NCBI GenBank assembly: GCA_017962105.1
Contig: JAGCVY010000083.1
Location: forward strand, 29,404-93,403
DNA: 64,000 nucleotides
Direction: 5' to 3'
Source: Lachnospiraceae bacterium
GTDB lineage: Bacteria > Bacillota > Clostridia > Lachnospirales > Lachnospiraceae
The notes under the pieces were generated by a model. That model was not told where the DNA came from, did not search any database, and was given only the letters and a program-made list of their open reading frames with translations. How positions within the stretch are numbered: the first letter of the stretch is position 1; the number at the start of each line of letters is the position of its first letter. The position numbers and the translations under genes are program-made. Below, in pieces: positions 501 to 38,785 of the stretch.

Positions 501-1598
501 TCACTCCGCCGTAAACGCCTGTTCCAGATCCCCGAGAATGTCCCGCGGATCCTCGATCCCCACGGACATCCGCAGCAGCCGGTCCGTGATTCCGAGGCGC
601 TCCTTCTGCTCCGCAGGCAAATCCGGGTGCGTCTGCAGAGACGGATATGTGAGAAGGCTCTCCGTCCCTCCCAGGCTTTCGGAAAATGTGATCAGCTTCA
701 CGTTGCGAAGGATCGACAGCGCCTTCTCCGCGGATTTTACGGAAAATGAGATCATCCCGCTGCCCGCATAATAGACTTCATCTACCTCCGAGCGGCCGCG
801 CAGCCAATCCCGTACGGTCTCGGCGTTACTCTTGTGGCGCTCCATCCGAAGCGCCAAAGTCTTCATTCCGCGAAGACACAACCAGCACTCAAAGGGCCCC
901 AGAGTCGCGCCCGTGGTCTTCGAGAGAAGCCGTATCCGGGCCGCTGCCGCAGGGTCCTTGCTGCACAGAAAGCCGCAGACCGTATCATTGTGACCGCTTA
1001 GGTACTTCGTCCCGGAGTGGATCACAAAATCCGCGCCCTCGGCCATGGGATGCTGCAGGTAGGGCGTCATAAAGGTGTTGTCCACCGCCAGCACCGCACC
1101 GTTTCGATGCGCGATCTCGGCGATCGCATGGATGTCGCTTACCCGCATCATCGGATTGGACGGCGTCTCCAGGTACACGGCCTTCGTGTCCGCACGGATC
1201 GCAGCTGCCACTTTAGCCGGATCGGTTGTGTCGACATACTCGATGCGGTACTCATTTTTCGTCTCAATCTGATCGATCAGGCGCACTACGCCGCCGTACA
1301 GATCCTCGCCGCACAGGATGTGGTCGCCGGGCCGGAAGCAATCAAAAAACGCCGAGATTGCAGCCATTCCCGATGCGAATGCCACCGTGTCATAAGCTCC
1401 CTCCAGGGAGCTTACGGTTTCCTCCAGAAACTTTCTGGTCGGATTGGATTCACGGGAATAGTCGAACCCCGACGGATTGTGTCCCGGCGTCAAATGGCTG
1501 AAACAGGCCGTCTGGTAGATGGGGAAGCTGACCGCACAGTTCGCGTCCGCGAGCGTGTGCCCTTCCCCGTGAATACATCGTGTCTCTATCGAATACAT
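501..1598 (-). CDS. Cys/Met-metabolism PLP enzyme, cystathionine gamma-lyase/gamma-synthase type
   Basis: A 365-residue PLP enzyme of the transsulfuration family. It probably forms or cleaves cystathionine or homocysteine. Family signatures visible are YSRESNPTR near residue 47, the phosphate-binding ASGMAA near 75, the PLP-ring aspartate in VDNTF (D173) and the Schiff-base lysine in HSGTKYLSGHND (K198). The protein is a little shorter than the usual 380-400 residues. It lies between an M20 peptidase and a PatB-type beta-lyase, so it probably works with them on cysteine, cystathionine or S-conjugates. Sequence alone does not separate gamma-lyase from gamma-synthase or homocysteine gamma-lyase. 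A separate metY-type enzyme is encoded at 41690. Confidence 0.85.
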   Translation of the reverse strand: MYSIETRCIHGEGHTLADANCAVSFPIYQTACFSHLTPGHNPSGFDYSRESNPTRKFLEETVSSLEGAYDTVAFASGMAAISAFFDCFRPGDHILCGEDLYGGVVRLIDQIETKNEYRIEYVDTTDPAKVAAAIRADTKAVYLETPSNPMMRVSDIHAIAEIAHRNGAVLAVDNTFMTPYLQHPMAEGADFVIHSGTKYLSGHNDTVCGFLCSKDPAAAARIRLLSKTTGATLGPFECWLCLRGMKTLALRMERHKSNAETVRDWLRGRSEVDEVYYAGSGMISFSVKSAEKALSILRNVKLITFSESLGGTESLLTYPSLQTHPDLPAEQKERLGITDRLLRMSVGIEDPRDILGDLEQAFTAE

Positions 1599-1634: not shown

Positions 1635-2765
1635 TTACGCGGTGATCAGAGCAACGGCAAGCTCCGCGGCTTTCGCCAGCTCGGAAAGCTCCGTGTACTC
1701 CTCCGTCGTGTGGGAATTTTCCATCGCGCAGGCGACCACGATCGCCGGCACGCCGTGCTCGTTCAGGCGGTTCGCATCGCTTCCGCCGTAGGTTGTGATC
1801 AACTCTGAACTGAGGCCCGCCGCCTTCGCAGCCTTCGTAAAATGCTGCACCACAGCCTCGGAAGCGTCCAGATGATATGCCCGGATGTGCTCGCGGCTTC
1901 GGCACTGCACGGTGCCGCCGAATGTTTTCGCCGTCTCTTCAAACCGTGTGAACACCTCGTTCACCAGCCGGAGCGCCTCCTCGTGGGAGAAGCTTCGCAC
2001 TTCCCCGGTGACAACCACCCGGTCCGGCACGATGTTGTCCGCCGTGCCCCCCGAGATGGTTCCGAAATTCACCGAGCTCTGCCCGTTTACACGCCCGGCG
2101 GACAATCCCGCGAGGGCATCCGCCGCGATGCTCACGGCATTGACGCCCAGCTCCGGCGCAAAACCGGCATGCGACGCCTTTCCGATGATCTCGACGGAAA
2201 ATGAAACAATCGACGGGGCCGCAACAGCAGTCGTTCCAACCGCTCCATTCAGGTCGAACACATACGCTTTCTTTGCGTGCACAAGGCGGAAGTCAAACGC
2301 CTCCGAACCCTCGCAGAAGCTCTCCTCCGCAGAGGTGATCAGTATTTCGATGTCCGGGTGAGGCAACCCCGATTCCTCAACAATTTGAATCGCCTCCAGA
2401 ATCACCGTCAACCCGGAAACATCATCTGCTCCAAGCACCGTGGACCCGTCGGATGTGATCGTGCCGTCCTCCCGCACGATCGCCTGTTTGCCCTTGCCCG
2501 GTCTCACGGTATCCAAATGTGCAGACAGCAGTATCGTCTCGCCCTCCGCGGTTCCCCGCAGGAAACCGTGGATGTTCGGAAAACTCCCGGGATGATCCGC
2601 AAGGAACGCCTCATCCGTAGTGTCCGTCCGCACGCTCACGCCGAGCCTTTGGAGATCGCGGACAATCTGATCTCCCAGTTCCCGCTCACTGTATGTCTCG
2701 CTGTCAATCGCAACATAATCCGAGAAGCGGCGCAAAAGCCGGTTTTTGTTGATTCGGTTTTCCAT
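1635..2765 (-). CDS. M20 family metallopeptidase, PepT-like
   Basis: Zinc-dependent exopeptidase or deacylase of the M20/PepT group, 376 residues. The metal-binding motifs are visible: SAHLDTVRPG (His and Asp near 83 and 85), LGADDVSG (Asp near 115) and TSAEES (catalytic Glu near 147), plus the dimerisation-domain segment GKASHAGFAPE. The start at 2765 was chosen because a strong AAGGAGG site sits 8 bases upstream. The frame stays open 10 codons further, but that would place translation across the ribosome site. In the operon it follows a tandem acetyltransferase and an amino-acid transporter. An M20 deacylase beside a GNAT and a cystine-type transporter resembles known cysteine-salvage operons (Bacillus yxe and ytm). 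The substrate, peptide or N-acyl amino acid, cannot be read from the sequence. Confidence 0.85.
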   Translation of the reverse strand: MENRINKNRLLRRFSDYVAIDSETYSERELGDQIVRDLQRLGVSVRTDTTDEAFLADHPGSFPNIHGFLRGTAEGETILLSAHLDTVRPGKGKQAIVREDGTITSDGSTVLGADDVSGLTVILEAIQIVEESGLPHPDIEILITSAEESFCEGSEAFDFRLVHAKKAYVFDLNGAVGTTAVAAPSIVSFSVEIIGKASHAGFAPELGVNAVSIAADALAGLSAGRVNGQSSVNFGTISGGTADNIVPDRVVVTGEVRSFSHEEALRLVNEVFTRFEETAKTFGGTVQCRSREHIRAYHLDASEAVVQHFTKAAKAAGLSSELITTYGGSDANRLNEHGVPAIVVACAMENSHTTEEYTELSELAKAAELAVALITA

Positions 2766-2814
2766 CGCTCGCTCCTCCTTTTCTTTATTTTCCAAAGGTC
2801 TCTCTTCTCAGCGG

Positions 2815-3843
2815 TCAGTATTCATCCGGAAACCGGTATCCGGCCGGCGTGAACATTTTTGCACGGAAATCCGAAGGACTTCCCTGCGGACGTTTTTCTC
2901 CGGATCCTCCGCTCTGCGGACGCTCCGGACGTTTCTCTTCCGGCCCGGCAATGTGTTTTTCAAACACGTATTTGTTTCTCCGGTACTCCGGAAAACGGTT
3001 ATAAAAGCCCACCGCGCCGGGGTGCGTGTTCAACACCACGATCTCCTCGCGGATCTGTTCGTCAAGTCTTCTGACAAGCCTCTTTCCTATGGACAGCCCC
3101 TGGTATTCCGGATCGACCGCGACATTTAAGATGGTGGCGTACAAGCCTCCGTCTGCCACGGCTCTGGCGATGCCCACGAGACGTTCCCCGTCAAAAGCCG
3201 TCACCACATAGGAACTGTTGGAAAATGCTTTTTCGGTCTTCGCCAGGTCGTGAGGTCTTCCGAAAAATGCCTTCGTCAACACCTCATTGACCTCGGGGTA
3301 CGAAGCCTGTGCAAGGCCGTCGGCGATCAGGACCTGCGCTCCGTCCGGGCGTATTTTCCGTCCGTTGTCCTGCGGGACGCCCTCTCCCGGAACCTTCGAA
3401 GGTTCCGCTCCGAACTCGCTCTCGAAGCGGTATCCCCAGGGAAGGAAATCGCTCTCCTTCATCCCCTCGCGGAACAGCGTCCACGCGTTTTTGCAGCGTC
3501 CGTACCCGGCCTTTTCATAGAGTTCCAGAAGTTCTCGCTGACCGTACACCATAACGCGGCGGCCTGTAAGGTCCTTCTCGATTTCCGTAAGGAGTCCCAG
3601 GAGTATTTCATCCCGTCCGGGGTCCCCGTCGGCGTACTCCGACGAAACCGCCAAATCTACCAGCAGCGCTGTCTCAACGCCCTCGCTGATCACGCGTACC
3701 GCTCCGACGAGCTTCCCGCGGTCATACGCGAGGCGGCTTACGAAGCTGTCGCGGAACCGCTCGTAACGGGAGGCGTCCCCGTAGAAAGTGTTTATGGCTT
3801 CCCGGTCCACGGGTGTGACATCGGATGTATAAAAGATTCCCAC
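2815..3843 (-). CDS. tandem GNAT-domain acetyltransferase
   Basis: A 342-residue protein that looks like two GNAT folds in one chain. The N-terminal copy (about 1-125) has LVGAVRVISEG and LVDLAVSSEYAD strands and an ELYEKAGYGRC end. The C-terminal copy (about 180-295) is better preserved, with LVGIARAVADGG, LNVAVDPEYQG and the acetyl-CoA loop LSIGKRLVRRL, ending in GFYNRFPEYRRNKY. A Gly/Pro/Lys/Arg-rich tail follows (about 300-330). GNAT enzymes transfer acetyl groups from acetyl-CoA to amines. Inside a sulfur-compound operon with an M20 deacylase, N-acetylation of a cysteine derivative is a reasonable inference but not shown. The N-terminal copy may be catalytically degenerate. Confidence 0.75.
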   Translation of the reverse strand: MGIFYTSDVTPVDREAINTFYGDASRYERFRDSFVSRLAYDRGKLVGAVRVISEGVETALLVDLAVSSEYADGDPGRDEILLGLLTEIEKDLTGRRVMVYGQRELLELYEKAGYGRCKNAWTLFREGMKESDFLPWGYRFESEFGAEPSKVPGEGVPQDNGRKIRPDGAQVLIADGLAQASYPEVNEVLTKAFFGRPHDLAKTEKAFSNSSYVVTAFDGERLVGIARAVADGGLYATILNVAVDPEYQGLSIGKRLVRRLDEQIREEIVVLNTHPGAVGFYNRFPEYRRNKYVFEKHIAGPEEKRPERPQSGGSGEKRPQGSPSDFRAKMFTPAGYRFPDEY

Positions 3844-3931: not shown

Positions 3932-4702
3932 TCAGATGAAATAATCGGGCTCCTTCAGCTTGTTCATCTTCTCGAAAAATTCTTTTGCACGATCGCTCTT
4001 CGGATGGCGGAACACCTCGGACGGCGAGCCGTCCTCAATGATCTTTCCGCCGTCAAGGAAGATGACGCGCGTCGATATCTTGCTCACAAAATCCATCTCG
4101 TGGGAAACCAAAAGCATCGTGTAGCCCTGTTCCGCAATCTGTTTGATGGTCGTGAGCACCTCCGTCACCAGCTCCGGGTCAAGCGCCGAAGTCGGCTCAT
4201 CAAGGAGGACAATGTCCGGCCGCATGGCAAGCGTTCGTGCAATTGCGACGCGCTGTTGCTGCCCGCCGGACATATGTCGCGGGTAATGGTTTTGCCAGGC
4301 CTTCAGTCCGACATTTTCCAATGCCTCAAGGGCCAGTTTCTCAGCCTCCTGCCTGGACTTCTTCTGTACGGTGATCAACCCTTCCATCACGTTCTGAAGC
4401 GCTGTCTTATGCTCGAAGAGGTAAAACCGCTGGAACACCATTCCAATTCTCTTGCGGAGTTCCGTGACCTTCTTCCGGTCCTTGGACTTGAGCGGCAGCG
4501 GAATCGTGATGTCCTCGAATTGGATCTCGCCCTGTTCGGGACGTTCCAAAAGATTGATGGAGCGGAGGAGGGTGGATTTGCCGGTGCCCGAGGGCCCGAC
4601 GATTCCGATGATGTCGCCCTTGTTGACGGAAAGGTCGATTCCGTCGAGAACCACATTGTCCCGGAAGCTTTTATGAATATCTTTAAGCTCCAGAATAGCC
4701 AT
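3932..4702 (-). CDS. polar amino-acid ABC transporter ATPase
   Basis: A 256-residue ATPase of the GlnQ/TcyN group that should energise import of an amino acid through the adjacent permease. Walker A is GPSGTGKST near residue 36, the Q-loop is GMVFQ, the signature is MSGGQQQRVAIARTLA, Walker B is IVLLDEPTSALDPE, and the switch histidine lies in LVSHEMDF. It sits 4 bases after the permease gene and is co-transcribed with it. The sulfur-metabolism neighbours suggest cystine, methionine or an S-modified cysteine as substrate, which is inference. Confidence 0.93.
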   Translation of the reverse strand: MAILELKDIHKSFRDNVVLDGIDLSVNKGDIIGIVGPSGTGKSTLLRSINLLERPEQGEIQFEDITIPLPLKSKDRKKVTELRKRIGMVFQRFYLFEHKTALQNVMEGLITVQKKSRQEAEKLALEALENVGLKAWQNHYPRHMSGGQQQRVAIARTLAMRPDIVLLDEPTSALDPELVTEVLTTIKQIAEQGYTMLLVSHEMDFVSKISTRVIFLDGGKIIEDGSPSEVFRHPKSDRAKEFFEKMNKLKEPDYFI

Positions 4703-4706
4703 CGTT

Positions 4707-5450
4707 TTACACCTCCTTTGCTGCCTCGACCGCCTTCGGCTGTTCCGGAATGCGGAACCGCTTCTCGATCAGTTTGAAAATCTTCTCGAGGATGACCGTG
4801 ATCACCCAGTATATGATTGCCAGAGCCACGTAACCTTCCAGATAGCGGTAGTCGCGGCCGGCCAGAATGGAATTCTGATACGTGATCTCGATGATGCCGC
4901 AGGTGGACGCGAGCGACGTCCCCTTCACAAGGCCGATCACCGAGTTGCAGATGCCGGGAAGCGCATTTTCCAGCGCCTCCGGCACAATGATCCTTCGTAA
5001 AATCTGCGGATAGGTCATTCCCATGGCCGTCGCTGCCTCAATCTCACCCTTGTCGACGGACTCAAGTGCCGCGCGGAAAATCTCGCTGGTGAACGCCGCC
5101 TGGTACAGGCCGAGCGCCACGAAGGCATAAACCATTTTCGGAATGATGTTTACATCGATGTCAGCGCCCCAGGAATTGAAGATCCGAAGGATTGCCGGTA
5201 TGCCGTAGTAAGCGACATACAGCTGTATCAGCATCGGTGTGCCCCGCATCAGGGAGAGGAACGCCGAGGCGATCGGGCTCAGAATCTTCACTTTTTTATA
5301 GCGGATGATGGCGATCAGAAGGCCGATGATGATCGAGACCAGAAACGCCAGCCCCGCCAACTCCAGCGTGATCGGGATTTTCTTTACCAGATGAGGTACT
5401 CTCGACCACATGAGCTTCACGCTGAAATAGTCGGAAAATTTCGTGTCCAT
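4707..5450 (-). CDS. amino-acid ABC transporter permease (HisM/GlnP family)
   Basis: A 247-residue integral membrane permease. Hydrophobic segments are visible near residues 25-50, 60-85, 100-125 and 190-225. The binding-protein-dependent transport signature (EAA loop) is EAATAMGMTYPQILRRIIVPEA near 137-158, shown here in full only by its start and end residues E137 and A158. It contacts the ATPase encoded 4 bases downstream and receives substrate from the lipoprotein encoded upstream. Only one permease gene is present, so a homodimer is expected. Confidence 0.93.
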   Translation of the reverse strand: MDTKFSDYFSVKLMWSRVPHLVKKIPITLELAGLAFLVSIIIGLLIAIIRYKKVKILSPIASAFLSLMRGTPMLIQLYVAYYGIPAILRIFNSWGADIDVNIIPKMVYAFVALGLYQAAFTSEIFRAALESVDKGEIEAATAMGMTYPQILRRIIVPEALENALPGICNSVIGLVKGTSLASTCGIIEITYQNSILAGRDYRYLEGYVALAIIYWVITVILEKIFKLIEKRFRIPEQPKAVEAAKEV

Positions 5451-5481: not shown

Positions 5482-6411
5482 TCAGTTGAGGTAGGTAAGA
5501 TCTGACTCCAGGGGAAGAACGCTCACGGAGTCATCTCCCAGCTTCTGTGCAATCCACTTCTTGCCAAGCTCTGCCAGTGTTCCGTTGTCATAGAGCGTCT
5601 TGATGCCCTCGGAAATCAGCTTCTGGTACTCCTTCGCGTGGGAACCGGTCTTGCCGAAGAGAATGTGGGACGTATTGTTGGCCGTGATGTTCGTCGCTGT
5701 CTCCTCATCAGAAAGAACCGTGATGTTCAGCTTCTCAAACTGTGCGGGATATGCCTGCTTGTACTTGAGGATAACCGGCTGGTCATGGATGAGCGCCACC
5801 TTGCCCTCAATAGCCTCCTCAAGCTGCACTGTAATGTCCGCGCTCGTGTACTCAAGAACAATCTTCTTTTCCCCTTTTTTGCGGGCATCATTCCAACGCT
5901 CGATGGCGTTGGTGGTGTTGCCGCCGGCGCTGCCGTAAATCTTCAATCCGGACTCCGCCAGTTCCTCAAAGGAGCTGATGCTCGTTCCCGCTGCGGAGGT
6001 GATCGTGTATCTCGACTTCGTGTACGGGAAGGAGAACAGGAAAGTCTCCGCGCGCTCCTTGTTGTAGCTCCAGTTGTTCACCGTTGCATCAATCACGCCC
6101 TGCTGGGTGTCCACAAGGGAGTTGGAGCTCACCGTGAGATCCAGCTCATAGTCGGCAAATTCAGGCAGTTTGAAGAGCTCTACAAGAACTGCGATGTCGT
6201 AGCCTGTAAGGTACACACCGTCCTTTGTGGTGTACAGTGCGTCTTCCTTATTTTCCACCGTCTCAATGAACGGGGCCGGGCGACCGCCGGTTTCAATCTT
6301 AATAATTTTCTTTCCGTTTTCGCCCTCTGCCTTGCTGCCGCAGCCGGTCAGAGCCGCCGCGGTCAGCACGAAGAGGATTGTGAGAATAAGTTTGGTAAGT
6401 TTCGTTTTCAT
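5482..6411 (-). CDS. substrate-binding lipoprotein of the amino-acid ABC transporter
   Basis: A 309-residue family 3 extracellular solute-binding protein. A lipoprotein signal with lipobox LTGC (Cys near 24) anchors it to the membrane. The mature part has the DIAVLVELFKLP-type segment, the ATVNNWSYNKERAETFLFSFPYTKSR block typical of family 3 proteins (read as residues of about 128-152), and a C-terminal helix ending in LGKKWIAQKLG. The start follows AAGGAGAC. The ligand is probably a sulfur-containing amino acid judged from the operon. The 121 bases between this gene and the upstream GST-like gene are A/T-rich; I see no convincing terminator there. Confidence 0.92.
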   Translation of the reverse strand: MKTKLTKLILTILFVLTAAALTGCGSKAEGENGKKIIKIETGGRPAPFIETVENKEDALYTTKDGVYLTGYDIAVLVELFKLPEFADYELDLTVSSNSLVDTQQGVIDATVNNWSYNKERAETFLFSFPYTKSRYTITSAAGTSISSFEELAESGLKIYGSAGGNTTNAIERWNDARKKGEKKIVLEYTSADITVQLEEAIEGKVALIHDQPVILKYKQAYPAQFEKLNITVLSDEETATNITANNTSHILFGKTGSHAKEYQKLISEGIKTLYDNGTLAELGKKWIAQKLGDDSVSVLPLESDLTYLN

Positions 6412-6532: not shown

Positions 6533-7786
6533 TCAGGCTTTCTTATTTTTCAAAAGTCCCTTCAGCGGATTGATGGAGGGATCCACTGATATCGAGACAT
6601 TTCTGGGCTGACGGTCATCCCACGACGGGCTGTTCCACTTGGAAACCGAGATCTCGCTCTGGTAGTCCTCGGGACTGATGTCCGTGTGGAGGAAGACATT
6701 TTCCGGATCCTCGGAAAGCTCGGCTCTCTTGCCGTCCGTCTTCCAAAGCTCGTCCCACGGCACCTGCGAAGCAATGCGCTCGAGGAAGGAACCGTTCCAG
6801 CCGCGGTTGCCCTTGAAGCGGTTCTTCGGGAATTCGAAGAATGTGTACTTCTTGAACTGCGGAATTGCGAAGAGATCTTTTACATAACCCCAGATGTTCG
6901 GGAACTCGGCGATACGCTTCTTCAGAGGTCCTACATTGTGATAGTAGTAGGTCTCCCAGCGTACCAGCGTCACGTACAGACGGACGTCGGAGTCGGTCAC
7001 GTAGTCGCCGAAGAGGAAGCGGTTGGTCGCAAGTCTCTCCTCGATCTTGTCGAGTGCGTTGAAGAAATCCTGATATCCTTCATCGTACGCAACCCAGGAC
7101 AGGCAGAAGTGCATGCGGTAGTGTGCGTTGTTGATGGTGGGGAAGAGCCAGTCGTTGAACTCGTCGATCTCCTTGCGATATGCCTTCGGATACAGGTCGA
7201 TGTCCGTCTTCTGGAACTTGCGGAACTGTACCTCGATGTAGTTGGAGAGGCGGTGGTAGTCGTTGTTGACTGCCTTCTTCTCCTTCACATCCACAAGGGT
7301 GGGCGTCGTTGCTCTTCCGGCAAATCCCGGTCTCGCGTTCTCATAGAACTCGGAGAGGAACACCGCTCCGGTGCTGGGATCCTGAAGATTCGGCTGATCG
7401 GTGAAGCCGTGGCCGTATTTTCCGATGCCGGAGGTGGCAAGCTCGTCGATCACGTCCTCAAGTCCGAGGATGTCGCGAACGATGACGGGGCGGTTGGACC
7501 AGTGGCATCCGTGTGCCCAGAAGATCTTGTAGCGGTTGGCCTCCGCCTTGAACTCTCCTTCCTTCTCACCGAAGGGAGTGATGAATGCGTTGGGCTGGCG
7601 GACGAACACGCCTCGCTCATCGATCTCGCTGATGGTCTCGTTCGGTCTCTCCCGAACTCCGCGCTCCTTGGCAAGGCGGTCAGCGGTCTCCTCATCGACT
7701 CTCGATGCCGGCCAGGGGCCTTCCTTTGCCTTATCGTTGTGTGCCTGCAGGCTGCATGCGTTTGCTATGTTTGTATTTTCACTCAT
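6533..7786 (-). CDS. glutathionyl-hydroquinone reductase-like (omega-GST fold) protein
   Basis: A 417-residue protein of the YqjG/ECM4 family. Known members reduce glutathionyl-hydroquinones using glutathione and a catalytic cysteine. The thioredoxin-like part carries RYKIFWAHGCHWSNRP with the candidate catalytic Cys94; the usual CPW is CHW here. The C-terminal GST helices include LFGDYVTDSDVRLYVTLVRW. It is longer than typical relatives (about 330) because of extra residues at both ends, including a Lys-rich C-terminus. Clostridia generally do not make glutathione, so the thiol partner is unclear. As the first gene after the attenuator of a cysteine/methionine operon, it may act on an S-conjugate. 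The start follows AAGGAG. Confidence 0.85.
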   Translation of the reverse strand: MSENTNIANACSLQAHNDKAKEGPWPASRVDEETADRLAKERGVRERPNETISEIDERGVFVRQPNAFITPFGEKEGEFKAEANRYKIFWAHGCHWSNRPVIVRDILGLEDVIDELATSGIGKYGHGFTDQPNLQDPSTGAVFLSEFYENARPGFAGRATTPTLVDVKEKKAVNNDYHRLSNYIEVQFRKFQKTDIDLYPKAYRKEIDEFNDWLFPTINNAHYRMHFCLSWVAYDEGYQDFFNALDKIEERLATNRFLFGDYVTDSDVRLYVTLVRWETYYYHNVGPLKKRIAEFPNIWGYVKDLFAIPQFKKYTFFEFPKNRFKGNRGWNGSFLERIASQVPWDELWKTDGKRAELSEDPENVFLHTDISPEDYQSEISVSKWNSPSWDDRQPRNVSISVDPSINPLKGLLKNKKA

Positions 7787-7834: not shown

Positions 7835-7996
7835 GCAAGCAAAGCTTGCTCATGTACGTGCGCTCGGCAATCCTTCCGCAGACTTCGTCTGCTTCCGTTC
7901 TTTCTATCGACACTCATTGAAAACGGCGTTTTCATGAGGTGTCGCTCGAAAGAACGCCGGCCGAACGCCGGATGATTGCTCTCGCTTAGCGCGCAT
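7835..7996. repeat. multi-hairpin repeat element, copy A
   Basis: Intergenic element of about 160 bases. Read on the plus strand, it has hairpins gcaagc-aaa-gcttgc (7835-7849), gcagac-ttc-gtctgc (7878-7892), a long arm gttctttc...gaaagaac enclosing tgaaaac-ggc-gttttca (about 7896-7952), and a short ccggc...gccgg arm. An outer stem pairs tgcgc (7859-7863) with gcgca near 7990-7994. Copy B at 38341 has the same plan with compensating base changes. On the minus strand the element starts exactly where the U-run of the attenuator terminator ends, and it lies in the leader of the sulfur operon. It could be a small mobile repeat or a structured leader RNA. Confidence 0.7.
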
Positions 7997-8031
7997 AAAA
8001 AAGCCGGAAGTTCTGGAAAACTCCCGGGCGA
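7996..8031 (-). terminator. attenuator terminator of the sulfur operon
   Basis: Intrinsic terminator on the minus strand: CCGGGAGTT (8027-8019), a six-base loop, AACTTCCGG (8012-8004), then CTTTTTTA. All nine pairs form in RNA, with one G-U. It lies 31 bases after the leader-ORF stop and before the first structural gene. Its 5' arm overlaps TCGCCCGGGAGT (8031-8020), which is perfectly complementary to 8117-8106 inside the leader ORF. Pairing of those segments would block the terminator. Confidence 0.85.
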
Positions 8032-8061
8032 TTCGGCATTAACGGTCAACAGACCGCAGTA

Positions 8062-8169
8062 TTACAATGTGTATGACAAACAAGCCATACACCGCACCGA
8101 TTGACTCGCCCGGGAGTACAACATTCGCATCATGTACATACACATACCGTTATTCAGAGTCTTTTTCAT
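8062..8169 (-). CDS. Met/Cys-rich leader peptide (attenuation)
   Basis: A 35-codon ORF that begins MKKTLNNG and then has MCMYMMRM at residues 9-16: five Met and one Cys in eight residues. It also has Cys27, Met28 and Cys30. The ribosome site is excellent (AAAGGAGG, 6 bases before ATG). The ORF is followed by a 7-bp hairpin (8069-8092), a small hairpin (8043-8056) and the terminator at 7996-8031. Segment 8117-8106, codons 18-22, just after the Met cluster, is perfectly complementary over 12 bases to the terminator 5' arm. The peptide is therefore probably a sensor of charged Met-tRNA and/or Cys-tRNA for the downstream sulfur operon. A functional small protein is the alternative. Confidence 0.8.
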   Translation of the reverse strand: MKKTLNNGMCMYMMRMLYSRASQSVRCMACLSYTL

Positions 8170-8367: not shown

Positions 8368-9273
8368 CTACAGTGCTTTATACTTGAGAAGCTCCTCCAC
8401 ATACACGCTGCCGTACGCTGACAGCGGACTTCCCTGGCGTGTGATATAGCCGATGACCAGCGGATCATCCTCCTTGAGTTTGACGGCAACCAAACCTTTC
8501 AGGATCGCATCATCCCCCGAGAGCATGCCGGTGCCTATGGAATAACCCCCGAGATCCGCAATCAGCTCCATGGTGGTGGCGCGGTCGTCGGAGCGGATCA
8601 TCCGCTCGAATTCCCTGTCAGCCATGGCCTCCTCGGTGAGGTAGTAATCGCTGTCGTCGCTCTGATCAAACGTGATGCACGGATACTCCCGCAGGTCCTC
8701 CAAAGACACCTCCAATGCCGCAGCCAGCGGATGGTTCTCCCACACATAGATGTAAGTGTCGCGCTGCATCAGAGGAACGAACGTGAGCTGGTACTCGCGG
8801 AACAGTTTCTTCATCAGCGCCTCGCTTCCCTCGGAAAATGAGACCACTCCCACTTCACTGCGCAGCGTCCGCACATCCTCCAGCACATCTTTCGTCTTCG
8901 TCTCATGAATGGCGAAGAGATACTGCTCGGGCTTGCATCTTCGGATCGTCTCTGCGAATGCCTTCACCGCAAAATTGTAGTGCTGGGTAGATACGGAAAA
9001 TCTCTCGCGGTTTTTATTTTTCGAGAGATACCGATCCTCAAGGATTTCGTACTGCCCGACAGCTTTCTTGGCGTACTCGACGAACTCCCGCCCCTCGTCG
9101 GTCAGCGAGATTCCCTTGCTGTTCCTCTCGAAGATCAGGATGCCGAGCTCCTCCTCGAGCTCCCGGATGCTGACCGAGAGCGCGGGCTGCGACACGAACA
9201 GTTTCGCCGCCGCTTCACGCATCGACGAGGAGCCTGCCACCGCAAGCACATATTTAATCTGGTTGATATTCAT
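8368..9273 (-). CDS. LysR-family transcriptional regulator
   Basis: A 301-residue LysR regulator. The N-terminal winged helix-turn-helix (1-60) has AAAKLFVSQPALSVSIRELE (19 and following) and LFER-like IFERN. The substrate-binding domain follows from about 90, with GVVSFSEG and YSIGTGM-type segments. The gene is transcribed in the same direction as the sulfur operon that follows it, with its own promoter and terminator. LysR regulators of the CysB/CysL/YtlI type commonly activate sulfur-assimilation operons in response to cysteine precursors. That role is inferred from position and from the operator-like palindromes at 8277-8303. Confidence 0.92.
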   Translation of the reverse strand: MNINQIKYVLAVAGSSSMREAAAKLFVSQPALSVSIRELEEELGILIFERNSKGISLTDEGREFVEYAKKAVGQYEILEDRYLSKNKNRERFSVSTQHYNFAVKAFAETIRRCKPEQYLFAIHETKTKDVLEDVRTLRSEVGVVSFSEGSEALMKKLFREYQLTFVPLMQRDTYIYVWENHPLAAALEVSLEDLREYPCITFDQSDDSDYYLTEEAMADREFERMIRSDDRATTMELIADLGGYSIGTGMLSGDDAILKGLVAVKLKEDDPLVIGYITRQGSPLSAYGSVYVEELLKYKAL

Positions 9274-18274: not shown

Positions 18275-18540
18275 GCCGTGCGAAGTGCGTCGAAACGCCT
18301 TTCCGGACGTTACCGCAGCAGTTGACTCGGCTCAGGTTTACTCGCGGCGCATGAGAGGGTTCGCTTAGTGCTGCTGTATTCCTACCCTGACACGGTTCAC
18401 AAATTCTCATCGCGCGAGGCCCAAGCTTCAACGTTACTTACTACGGGCAGCTCCAAATCGGACGCCCCTCGGCACATCATCACCCCTGCTGTAGCGGATT
18501 GCAGGTACAGGGCACCGCTATCTCCCCGGTTGCACGGCAC
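18275..18540 (-). ncRNA. ffs: signal recognition particle RNA (large Firmicutes type)
   Basis: About 266 bases, the size of Bacillus scRNA. The 5' part carries the Alu-domain sequence CCGGGGAG..TAGCGGTGCCCTG and AATCCGCTA. The S-domain tip reads GTGAACC, GTGTCAGG, GGAA and AGCAGCACTAAG in order, matching the conserved SRP54-binding loop region. The ends pair as GCCGTGC (5') with GCACGGC (3', 18281-18275), followed by TTTTGTATT. A perfect sigma-A promoter sits just upstream. It guides membrane proteins to the Sec machinery with Ffh. Confidence 0.93.
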
Positions 18541-18611: not shown

Positions 18612-18690
18612 GAAAAAGCGCACTCAGTGAGAAGATTGCGCACAACACACTTCGCGAGCAAAGCTCGCTCAGCGCGCACTTCGAGATAAG
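18612..18690. repeat. reduced copy (C) of the multi-hairpin repeat element
   Basis: It contains the hairpin gcgagc-aaa-gctcgc (18654-18668), identical to the first hairpin of copy B, followed by agcgcgca and, on the minus strand, directly preceded by an intrinsic terminator. The other arms of copies A and B are missing or rearranged; a gcgcactcagtgag...gcgcac segment remains. It lies between the ftsH-side terminator and the SRP promoter. Confidence 0.5.
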
Positions 18691-38500: not shown

Positions 38501-38785
38501 AAAAAAAGGCCCTCGACTTTACGGAATTGTAAAGACGAGAGTCCGAGACTTCGTGGTACCACTTTACTTCGCATATTTCTATGCCTCTGCAGCTGCGGAT
38601 AAAAATCGACAGCCTTGCGCTCTAACGGGCGCACCCGGCGGAACCTAAGCGCCCAAGCGCCTCGCCCCCGCAGCTCCGGGACCATGTTCCCGACATCGTT
38701 CCCCGTATCCGTTCTCAGCTGCCCGGATTCTCTGTAGCGGATTCGTATCGGTACTCTTCCCTTCTTCGCTAAGCTTATGAAGTTG
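38501..38785 (-). promoter_or_regulatory. T-box riboswitch of metG
   Basis: Leader RNA upstream of a tRNA synthetase with the T-box sequence AAGTGGTACCACGA (38564-38551), followed by terminator arms CTCGTCTTTAC and GTAAAGTCGAG (38539-38529 with 38522-38512) and a TTTTTTT run (38507-38501). The 5' part has the AGAGA and GCTGAGAACGGATAC segments of stem I and ATG triplets near 38690 that could be the Met specifier. Uncharged tRNA-Met should stabilise the antiterminator. The T-box core has ACCACG rather than the usual ACCGCG. Confidence 0.88.

Follow-up and report, generated by a model that had tools for sequence, protein, structure and literature searches.

Attenuators of the trp and his type combine a leader ORF that carries control codons with an antiterminator and an intrinsic terminator that are mutually exclusive, ahead of genes for the matching amino acid. 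In leaders of the TnaC and Erm type, a ligand causes the nascent peptide to arrest the ribosome. Cysteine sensing in Clostridia is usually credited to T-boxes, SAM riboswitches and CymR-type regulators. The Bacillus subtilis ytmI operon, which serves the use of S-modified cysteine, is under LysR and CymR control and is not known to be governed by a leader peptide. A ribosome-mediated case has reportedly been found in Listeria, and a 2020 study by Canestrari is said to deal with polycysteine ORFs of mycobacteria that are, going by its title, leaderless. Several published descriptions are close to what we report here. In the accessible text on it, the uORFC-8-2 motif is a predicted Cys-codon leader before cysS of Rhodobacterales, with the Cys codons in the first stem and a terminator at the 3' end (PMC8632094). 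Mycobacterial leader peptides with Cys codons precede cys operons, with no conserved terminator hairpin according to the accessible part of the account (Seliverstov 2005, PMC1262725). His leader peptides of Bacilli, before hisZ and hisS*, exemplify leader-peptide attenuation that replaces T-boxes in Firmicutes (accessible text of PMC2965389). As far as these excerpts go, Actinobacteria and Rhodobacterales already offer known or predicted cases of Cys-codon attenuation. Our literature search, which covered few subscription papers or preprints, found no Cys leader peptide in Clostridia.

We analysed a stretch of 64,000 nucleotides from a Lachnospiraceae bacterium, called the window below, and consider a leader in it, upstream of a gene for a glutathione S-transferase-like (GST) protein, to be a ribosome-mediated transcription attenuator that senses the supply of Cys-tRNA and, in the window's branch of the family, possibly that of Met-tRNA too (probability about 0.84). 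This reading is backed by comparison of relatives, namely by the ORF, its Cys codons, a CGA-AUG motif, covariation of the antiterminator (B:B'), the terminators and the sulfur genes downstream; from these we infer ribosome stalling, the order of folding and the response to starvation. We hold the attenuator reading firmly and the exact switch loosely. The leader comprises the following elements, in the order of transcription:

8264-8236, minus strand: promoter-like site TTTTCA-17-TATGAT with TG before the -10 element (consensus scan; by itself no evidence of function)
8183-8176, minus strand: Shine-Dalgarno (SD) sequence of the leader ORF, AAAGGAGG, read from the sequence
8169-8062, minus strand: leader peptide ORF of 35 codons, peptide MKKTLNNGMCMYMMRMLYSRASQSVRCMACLSYTL, kept in relatives
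8145-8122, minus strand: control region, formed by codons 9-16 (MCMYMMRM), with the near-invariant CGA-AUG (8127-8122) at its end
8145-8137, minus strand: segment A, AUGUGUAUG (M9 C10 M11), which would form the 5' arm of a sequestering pairing, A:A'
8117-8106, minus strand: segment B1, ACUCCCGGGCGA, antiterminator 5' arm within the ORF (codons 18-22), covarying with B1'
8092-8069, minus strand: local hairpin P1, GUGUAUGGC-uuguuu-GUCAUACAC, nested within the antiterminator
8075-8067, minus strand: segment A', CAUACACAU, partner of A, overlapping the P1 3' arm and the end of the ORF
8031-8020, minus strand: segment B1', UCGCCCGGGAGU, antiterminator 3' arm, overlapping the terminator 5' arm
7997-8027, minus strand: intrinsic terminator (consensus scan) with stem 8027-8004 (10 pairs, loop of 4), then CTTTTTT, U tract at 8002-7997

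The transcription start of the leader RNA is a presumed one. The genes around the leader are as follows:

8368-9273, minus strand: LysR-type regulator, upstream of the leader (family matches)
6533-7786, minus strand: first structural gene, GST-like protein of 417 aa (Pfam GST_C_2, 1.5e-11; no NCBIfam match)
5482-6411, minus strand: ABC substrate-binding protein, SBP_bac_3 (family match)
4707-5450, minus strand: ABC permease (best model a cystine permease, below its cut-off)
3932-4702, minus strand: ABC ATPase (best model L-cystine TcyN, below its cut-off)
2815-3843, minus strand: GNAT acetyltransferase (family match)
1635-2795, minus strand: PepT-like M20 protein (TIGR01883, above cut-off)
501-1598, minus strand: PLP enzyme of the cystathionine lyase/synthase kind (none of the best models reaching its cut-off)

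An earlier note, made from this sequence alone, had proposed a leader peptide and transcription attenuator before a sulfur operon. Its 35-codon ORF with a good ribosome site and MCMYMMRM at residues 9-16 was confirmed by our reading, and the terminator and the 12-base antiterminator pairing of 8106-8117 with 8020-8031 are present, including the overlap with the terminator 5' arm. The two arms are complementary at 12/12 positions, and an inverted-repeat search extends the match to 15 bases at 93%. Conservation of the ORF, the Cys codons, the terminator and a covarying antiterminator now upholds the proposal as a whole. The label "cysteine/methionine operon" is plausible from the family matches, several of whose best models lie under their cut-offs. 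A LysR gene precedes the GST gene also in four relatives (L040, L041, L048 and L050; L numbers are our locus labels), and the upstream regulator may contribute promoter control. Folding of the leader RNA, which the note had suggested as a check, gave a leader only slightly more stable than its shuffles (z -1.67, 11/200). Because single-sequence folding is weak evidence, the case above chance rests on comparison, from which support did come.

Elsewhere in the window we observed a bacterial large SRP RNA (18276-18537, minus strand, 174 bits) and a T-box-like RNA (38528-38775, minus strand, 83.4 bits, under Rfam's 93), the latter apparently, as judged by eye, before a methionyl-tRNA synthetase-like frame. 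An imperfect 30-base inverted repeat lies between the terminator and the GST gene (7896-7956). The sequence GCGCTAAGCGAG at 7981-7992 has one-mismatch copies at 18664 and 38487; three or more copies occur in 1/100 shuffles, and it may be a small repeat of the genome.

The GST gene was found in 9/99 genomes (E <= 0.001) and in 21/397 genomes of the family (E <= 1e-40), the window's own genome being counted in both. We fetched the best 80 of 108 GST loci and looked for short, Cys-rich, SD-led ORFs at most 500 bases before a long ORF. The operon strand held 38 of them, in 31/80 loci, versus 0 on the opposite strand; three of the 38 (L106, L113 and L119) look like chance. When a terminator was additionally demanded, in an earlier form of the test, the counts were 23 and 1. 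A script found terminators for 30/37 leaders, the window's own being among the 7 missed. Eleven loci have GST identity of at least 78%. One of these (L047) begins inside the GST gene, and all 10 with upstream DNA (L040-L046 and L048-L050, with near-duplicates L043/L044 and L045/L046) have a Cys/Met-rich leader. Pairing of the 8106/8020 type was seen in 9 of these 10; at L049 no terminator was found. The earlier note had staked its proposal on relatives keeping the ORF and the pairing wherever they keep the operon. The search of relatives bore this out for the closest loci, and the antiterminator covaries across the family (below), whereas farther GST loci often lack a leader: the short-ORF test found no Cys-rich leader at 49/80, six of which (L051, L055, L059, L063, L067 and L078) match our covariance model R1.

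Leader peptides within the genus are nearly identical (L002/L040) or varied (L003/L041; L010 has MKKLLNLGMCMYMMRMLYSRASQSVRCMT). Those of other genera include MCMHRMLYSR (L004/L050), MCMCQMMCRMLYSR (L013/L044), MCYMCMMKRMQYFR (L015/L045), MCMCRMLCSR (L024) and MCSMCSRMLNF (L048), and elsewhere poly-Cys leaders occur, such as MEMCCCCCC of Fusicatenibacter saccharivorans (L103), MMMCCCCC, LMCCCMCMM and others. The residue common to all these peptides is Cys. A strict DNA pattern for MCM...MLYS matched in 3/397 genomes and was too strict. The poly-Cys leaders, with up to 6 Cys in a row (L103 at 8766, L094 at 8813, L088 at 8794, L076 at 8804, L100 at 7935), precede GST genes of Fusicatenibacter and Butyrivibrio kin, have a different terminator and show no clear antiterminator within the ORF; they are perhaps a second architecture. 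In these class II leaders (Butyrivibrio, Fusicatenibacter and kin), no significant pairing was found (mean z -0.65, n=12), and an antiterminator arm may lie 6-17 bases beyond the stop codon. We therefore counted class II only as evidence for Cys leaders.

Model R1 (E <= 0.01) has matches in 50/397 genomes of the family and in 18/22 of the genus, including the window's own genome, which carries three copies: the window's leader, a second ahead of MetY (L177) and a third ahead of a further Cys/Met PLP enzyme (L179). We catalogued and read 86 R1 places, many of them related to each other. A script test detected an in-frame start with an SD-like sequence at each of the 86. In 86/86, too, the 8 codons preceding the CGA-AUG position include Cys, a count that is biased because the control region was included in the training of R1. 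Exact CGAATG occurs in 81/86, with Cys at -1 in 69/86 and at -2 in 60/86, and Met at -4 in 54/86.

Because R1 had seen the control region, we built a second model, R2, solely from DNA after CGA-AUG. At E <= 0.001, R2 has matches in 21/334 genomes of the order and 12/331 of the class, the own genome included in both, and the matches span families f8, f17, f53, f66, f82 and f83 besides the window's own. We read 26 of the 29 order places (the other 3 belong to the own genome) and 10 of the 17 class places (3 others being of the own genome, 1 already read and 3 lacking a fetched locus). A Cys codon lies at most 8 codons upstream in 26/26 and 10/10 of these, respectively, and in 31/31 places of newly searched genomes. 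CGAATG, which R2 had not seen either, was present on manual reading in 31/36. An ORF with a strong SD (score of at least 5) was found at 22/26 order places and was lacking at 4/26; at two R2 places the reading frame differs from that of the match start. On the strength of these alignments and counts, the leader and its RNA switch appear to belong to a widespread and apparently unrecorded family in Clostridia.

Covariation was assessed in several alignments, the relatedness of the sequences persisting in shuffles and being removed by versions in which the helix is slid. In A2, consisting of 18 window-type leaders chosen by hand from 37, the 12-bp antiterminator helix is paired in 85.4% of cells (20-50% in slid versions), with 16 doubly changed cells versus 7.2 in shuffles, a value reached by 0/500. 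A set of 79 matches has 50 doubly changed cells versus 25.5 (0/500 shuffles), in an alignment that was itself fitted to the helix. Alignment A4, made with MAFFT, holds 57 rows from the 86-place catalogue, after removal of 29 that were near-duplicates or weak, and two helices, B2 (AUGGC with GCCAU) and P1, were added to it by inspection. Here 86.2% of cells are paired versus 25-45% in slid versions, and 67 cells are doubly changed versus 26.2 in shuffles (0/500). Examples are G-C to A-U changes at columns 14/144 in 9 sequences and at 16/142 in 6. For P1 (helix 3), three core pairs were counted in the 57 sequences, 82.1% of them paired. MAFFT aligns terminator loops poorly, and terminator pairs were therefore left out of the count. 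The mutually exclusive antiterminator B:B' is thus conserved by covariation. At L230, a match on the reversed strand, the ORF ends right after Arg-Met-Arg, ahead of the antiterminator arm, and the arm is kept, which argues that it is conserved as RNA.

Genes adjoining the 86 places were assigned by sequence signatures to MetY (35), an amino acid binding protein that we take to be of the cystine type (11), GST (10), PepT-like M20 proteins (10), the cystathionine lyase/synthase kind (6) and single cases (12), with no ORF in reach at 2. The single cases include CysK, MetQ, MetN and some lacking an assignment. L137, a GST leader whose next-ORF call took a false ORF, was placed in the class "other". 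Ten representatives were run against NCBIfam. Scores above cut-off were obtained for TIGR01326 (MetY, L177), TIGR01139 (CysK, L187), TIGR01883 (PepT-like, L080) and (2S)-3-sulfopropanediol dehydratase (L188); best models fell below cut-off for L179, L135 and L156 (MetQ-like), L158 (MetN-like) and L175 (cystathionine kind), and the gene at L142 had no NCBIfam match. Most nameable downstream genes concern sulfur amino acids or sulfonates, although taken alone the PepT-like genes, L142 and some of the single cases give no sign of this. The control codons (Cys) match the downstream genes (sulfur). At L188, the attenuator (552-707) precedes the (2S)-3-sulfopropanediol dehydratase gene, an arrangement suggesting that Cys shortage may open sulfonate use.

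The 8 codons before CGA contain 168 UGU and 23 UGC, versus 37 and 83 in 84 downstream genes; for comparison, Cys accounts for 30/2993 codons in nine window genes. CGA is a minority codon also, with 50/1286 Arg codons in downstream genes. Minority control codons suit stalling, and the codon choice could also serve pairing. Cys, mostly as UGU, is the constant codon, and Met richness is mainly a trait of the window's branch. The earlier note's Met/Cys-rich leader peptide stands with respect to Cys, but its Met abundance is largely confined to that branch.

The RNA is ordered as control codons (A), B within the ORF, P1 and A', B' (the terminator 5' arm), terminator 3' arm and U tract. When Cys is plentiful, the ribosome would run through the ORF, and either A:A' or the passing or terminating ribosome would separate B from B', such that the terminator forms and the operon is off. 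When Cys, or here perhaps the neighbouring Met, is short, a ribosome waiting at the control codons would cover A; P1 and B:B' would then form during RNA synthesis, the terminator would be blocked and the operon would be read. How the antiterminator arm is sequestered was left unclear by the earlier note. A candidate for the missing hairpin is A:A', which an inverted-repeat search found complementary at 9/9 positions (8145-8137 with 8075-8067) and which crosses B:B', so that the two are mutually exclusive in a nested model (a pseudoknot lies outside this model). Across the family, A, taken as the Cys codons and CGA-AUG, pairs with the stretch after B more strongly than with shuffled versions of that stretch, at a mean z of -1.14 (s.e. 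0.16; n=80 of 86 places; p <= 0.05 in 26), and a YRUUCG partner occurs in 35 of 80 places versus 6.15 expected. For the GST group, z averages -1.22 (n=11, all negative, none with p < 0.01). The trend is thus one of groups: in the window alone, A:A' is no better than chance (z -0.75, p 0.23).

In the nested fold of the window's leader, B:B' wins without any ribosome, and the off state must therefore be kinetic or driven by the ribosome. As long as B' is still missing from the transcript, A takes part in the folds, and B often does too; masking of the first 32 bases lets P1 form in the window type and leaves B freer. With a ribosome mask that places the last Cys codon in the A site, the cost of opening B falls in 14/18 leaders (mean 7.1 to 5.5 kcal/mol). 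The exceptions are the window and three congeners, which show no fall at C10 and do show one at M13-M14. A stall at Cys10 as the event that opens B in the window failed this test, as the cost rises from 7.3 to 9.4 kcal/mol. Masks for stalls at early codons lower the cost in 12/18 leaders and those at the stop codon in 11/18; because this is almost as often, the mask test separates the states poorly.

The constancy of CGAATG (81/86) and of Cys at -1 (69/86), together with the rarity of CGA among Arg codons (50/1286), would also fit a nascent peptide whose Cys-Arg-Met motif itself stalls the ribosome on a ligand, independently of codon starvation. However, the peptides ahead of the motif differ in sequence and length, poly-Cys leaders (L103, L100 and L070 at 8704) do without Cys-Arg-Met, the window's Cys lies five codons ahead of the Arg, and constancy at the level of codons better suits RNA pairing or slow decoding than peptide chemistry; we judge such arrest improbable. 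A metabolite riboswitch or T-box-like RNA with an incidentally overlapping ORF would account for a conserved structured RNA with antiterminator and terminator. Yet the leader matched none of the covariance models of Rfam 15, including T-box (RF00230), SAM and other riboswitches, 20 relative loci searched against Rfam gave one tRNA only, and Cys codons recur under R2, a model blind to them. The genome does have T-boxes, with 11 matches, 4 of them over cut-off, seen by eye before valS, proS, trpE, tyrS, ileS, thrS, trpB and others; there is none at the leader, and this explanation is very unlikely. (T-boxes as the Cys regulator of this genome were considered separately and set aside, as by eye none of the 11 precedes an obvious Cys gene.) Less credible still is the idea that the ORF encodes a small Cys-rich protein with a function of its own and that the terminator after it is an ordinary one: the ORF has a good SD and a conserved peptide core, but B:B' covaries, L230 keeps B and its partner although its ORF ends before B, and genes lie closely downstream of the terminator.

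The remaining alternative concerns which codons are read. Met codons (M13, M14 and M16) could be the ones that exert control in the window's branch, with Cys secondary, making the leader a Met-retuned Cys attenuator. Over the 8 codons that precede CGA, Met and Cys average 3.3 and 1.8 in GST-type leaders versus 1.2 and 2.0 in MetY-type leaders, and the catalogue's sole MetN-type leader contains 4 Met and 1 Cys. Moreover, placing M13 or M14 in the A site cuts the cost of opening B in the window from 7.3 to about 2 kcal/mol, and C10 in that position raises it, as noted. However, Cys is present in all 10 leaders classed as GST-type, whose counts come from related sequences, and Met at -4 is common throughout the family (54/86), so the role of Met may lie in RNA pairing and not in sensing. 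We regard retuning as possible but rather doubtful. A broader and equally tentative proposal is that one scaffold (A-B-A'-B'-terminator with a near-invariant UGU-CGA-AUG core) could serve Clostridia generally for sensing sulfur amino acids. In it, minority UGU codons and a slow CGA would form the Cys stall site, the same codons would double as the sequestering arm, and some branches, the window's among them, would be retuned to Met through Met codons moved to the decisive positions.

If the attenuator reading is true, a codon-reading Cys attenuator across several families of Clostridia would define a Cys regulon missed by annotation, one that would include MetY, CysK, enzymes of the cystathionine lyase types, importers of amino acids and a glycyl radical enzyme that uses sulfonates. 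Our analysis supplies covariance models for finding further members of the family, and Fusicatenibacter saccharivorans (L103) is a named, cultured host of a poly-Cys relative.

Compared with known systems, the window's leader resembles attenuators of the trp and his type in its leader ORF with control codons, its exclusive antiterminator and terminator and its matching genes. Unlike them, it has the antiterminator 5' arm inside the ORF, past the control codons, its stop codon lies 14 codons further on (more than 20 in some MetY leaders), and a near-invariant CGA-AUG stands behind the control codons. The operon resembles the ytmI operon in its GNAT protein, cystine-type ABC transporter, M20 deacylase and LysR regulator. 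The His leaders of Bacilli concern another amino acid and another class, and the accessible text names no Cys leader (PMC2965389). The uORFC-8-2 motif, compared here by its description in the accessible text, belongs to Alphaproteobacteria and occurs only before cysS (PMC8632094), whereas the window's first gene is GST-like; no model of the motif turned up among our Rfam matches. In contrast to the polycysteine leaders of mycobacteria, as far as the available sources describe them, the window's leader is led by an SD sequence (8183-8176) and has both a terminator (8027-8004) and a covarying antiterminator.
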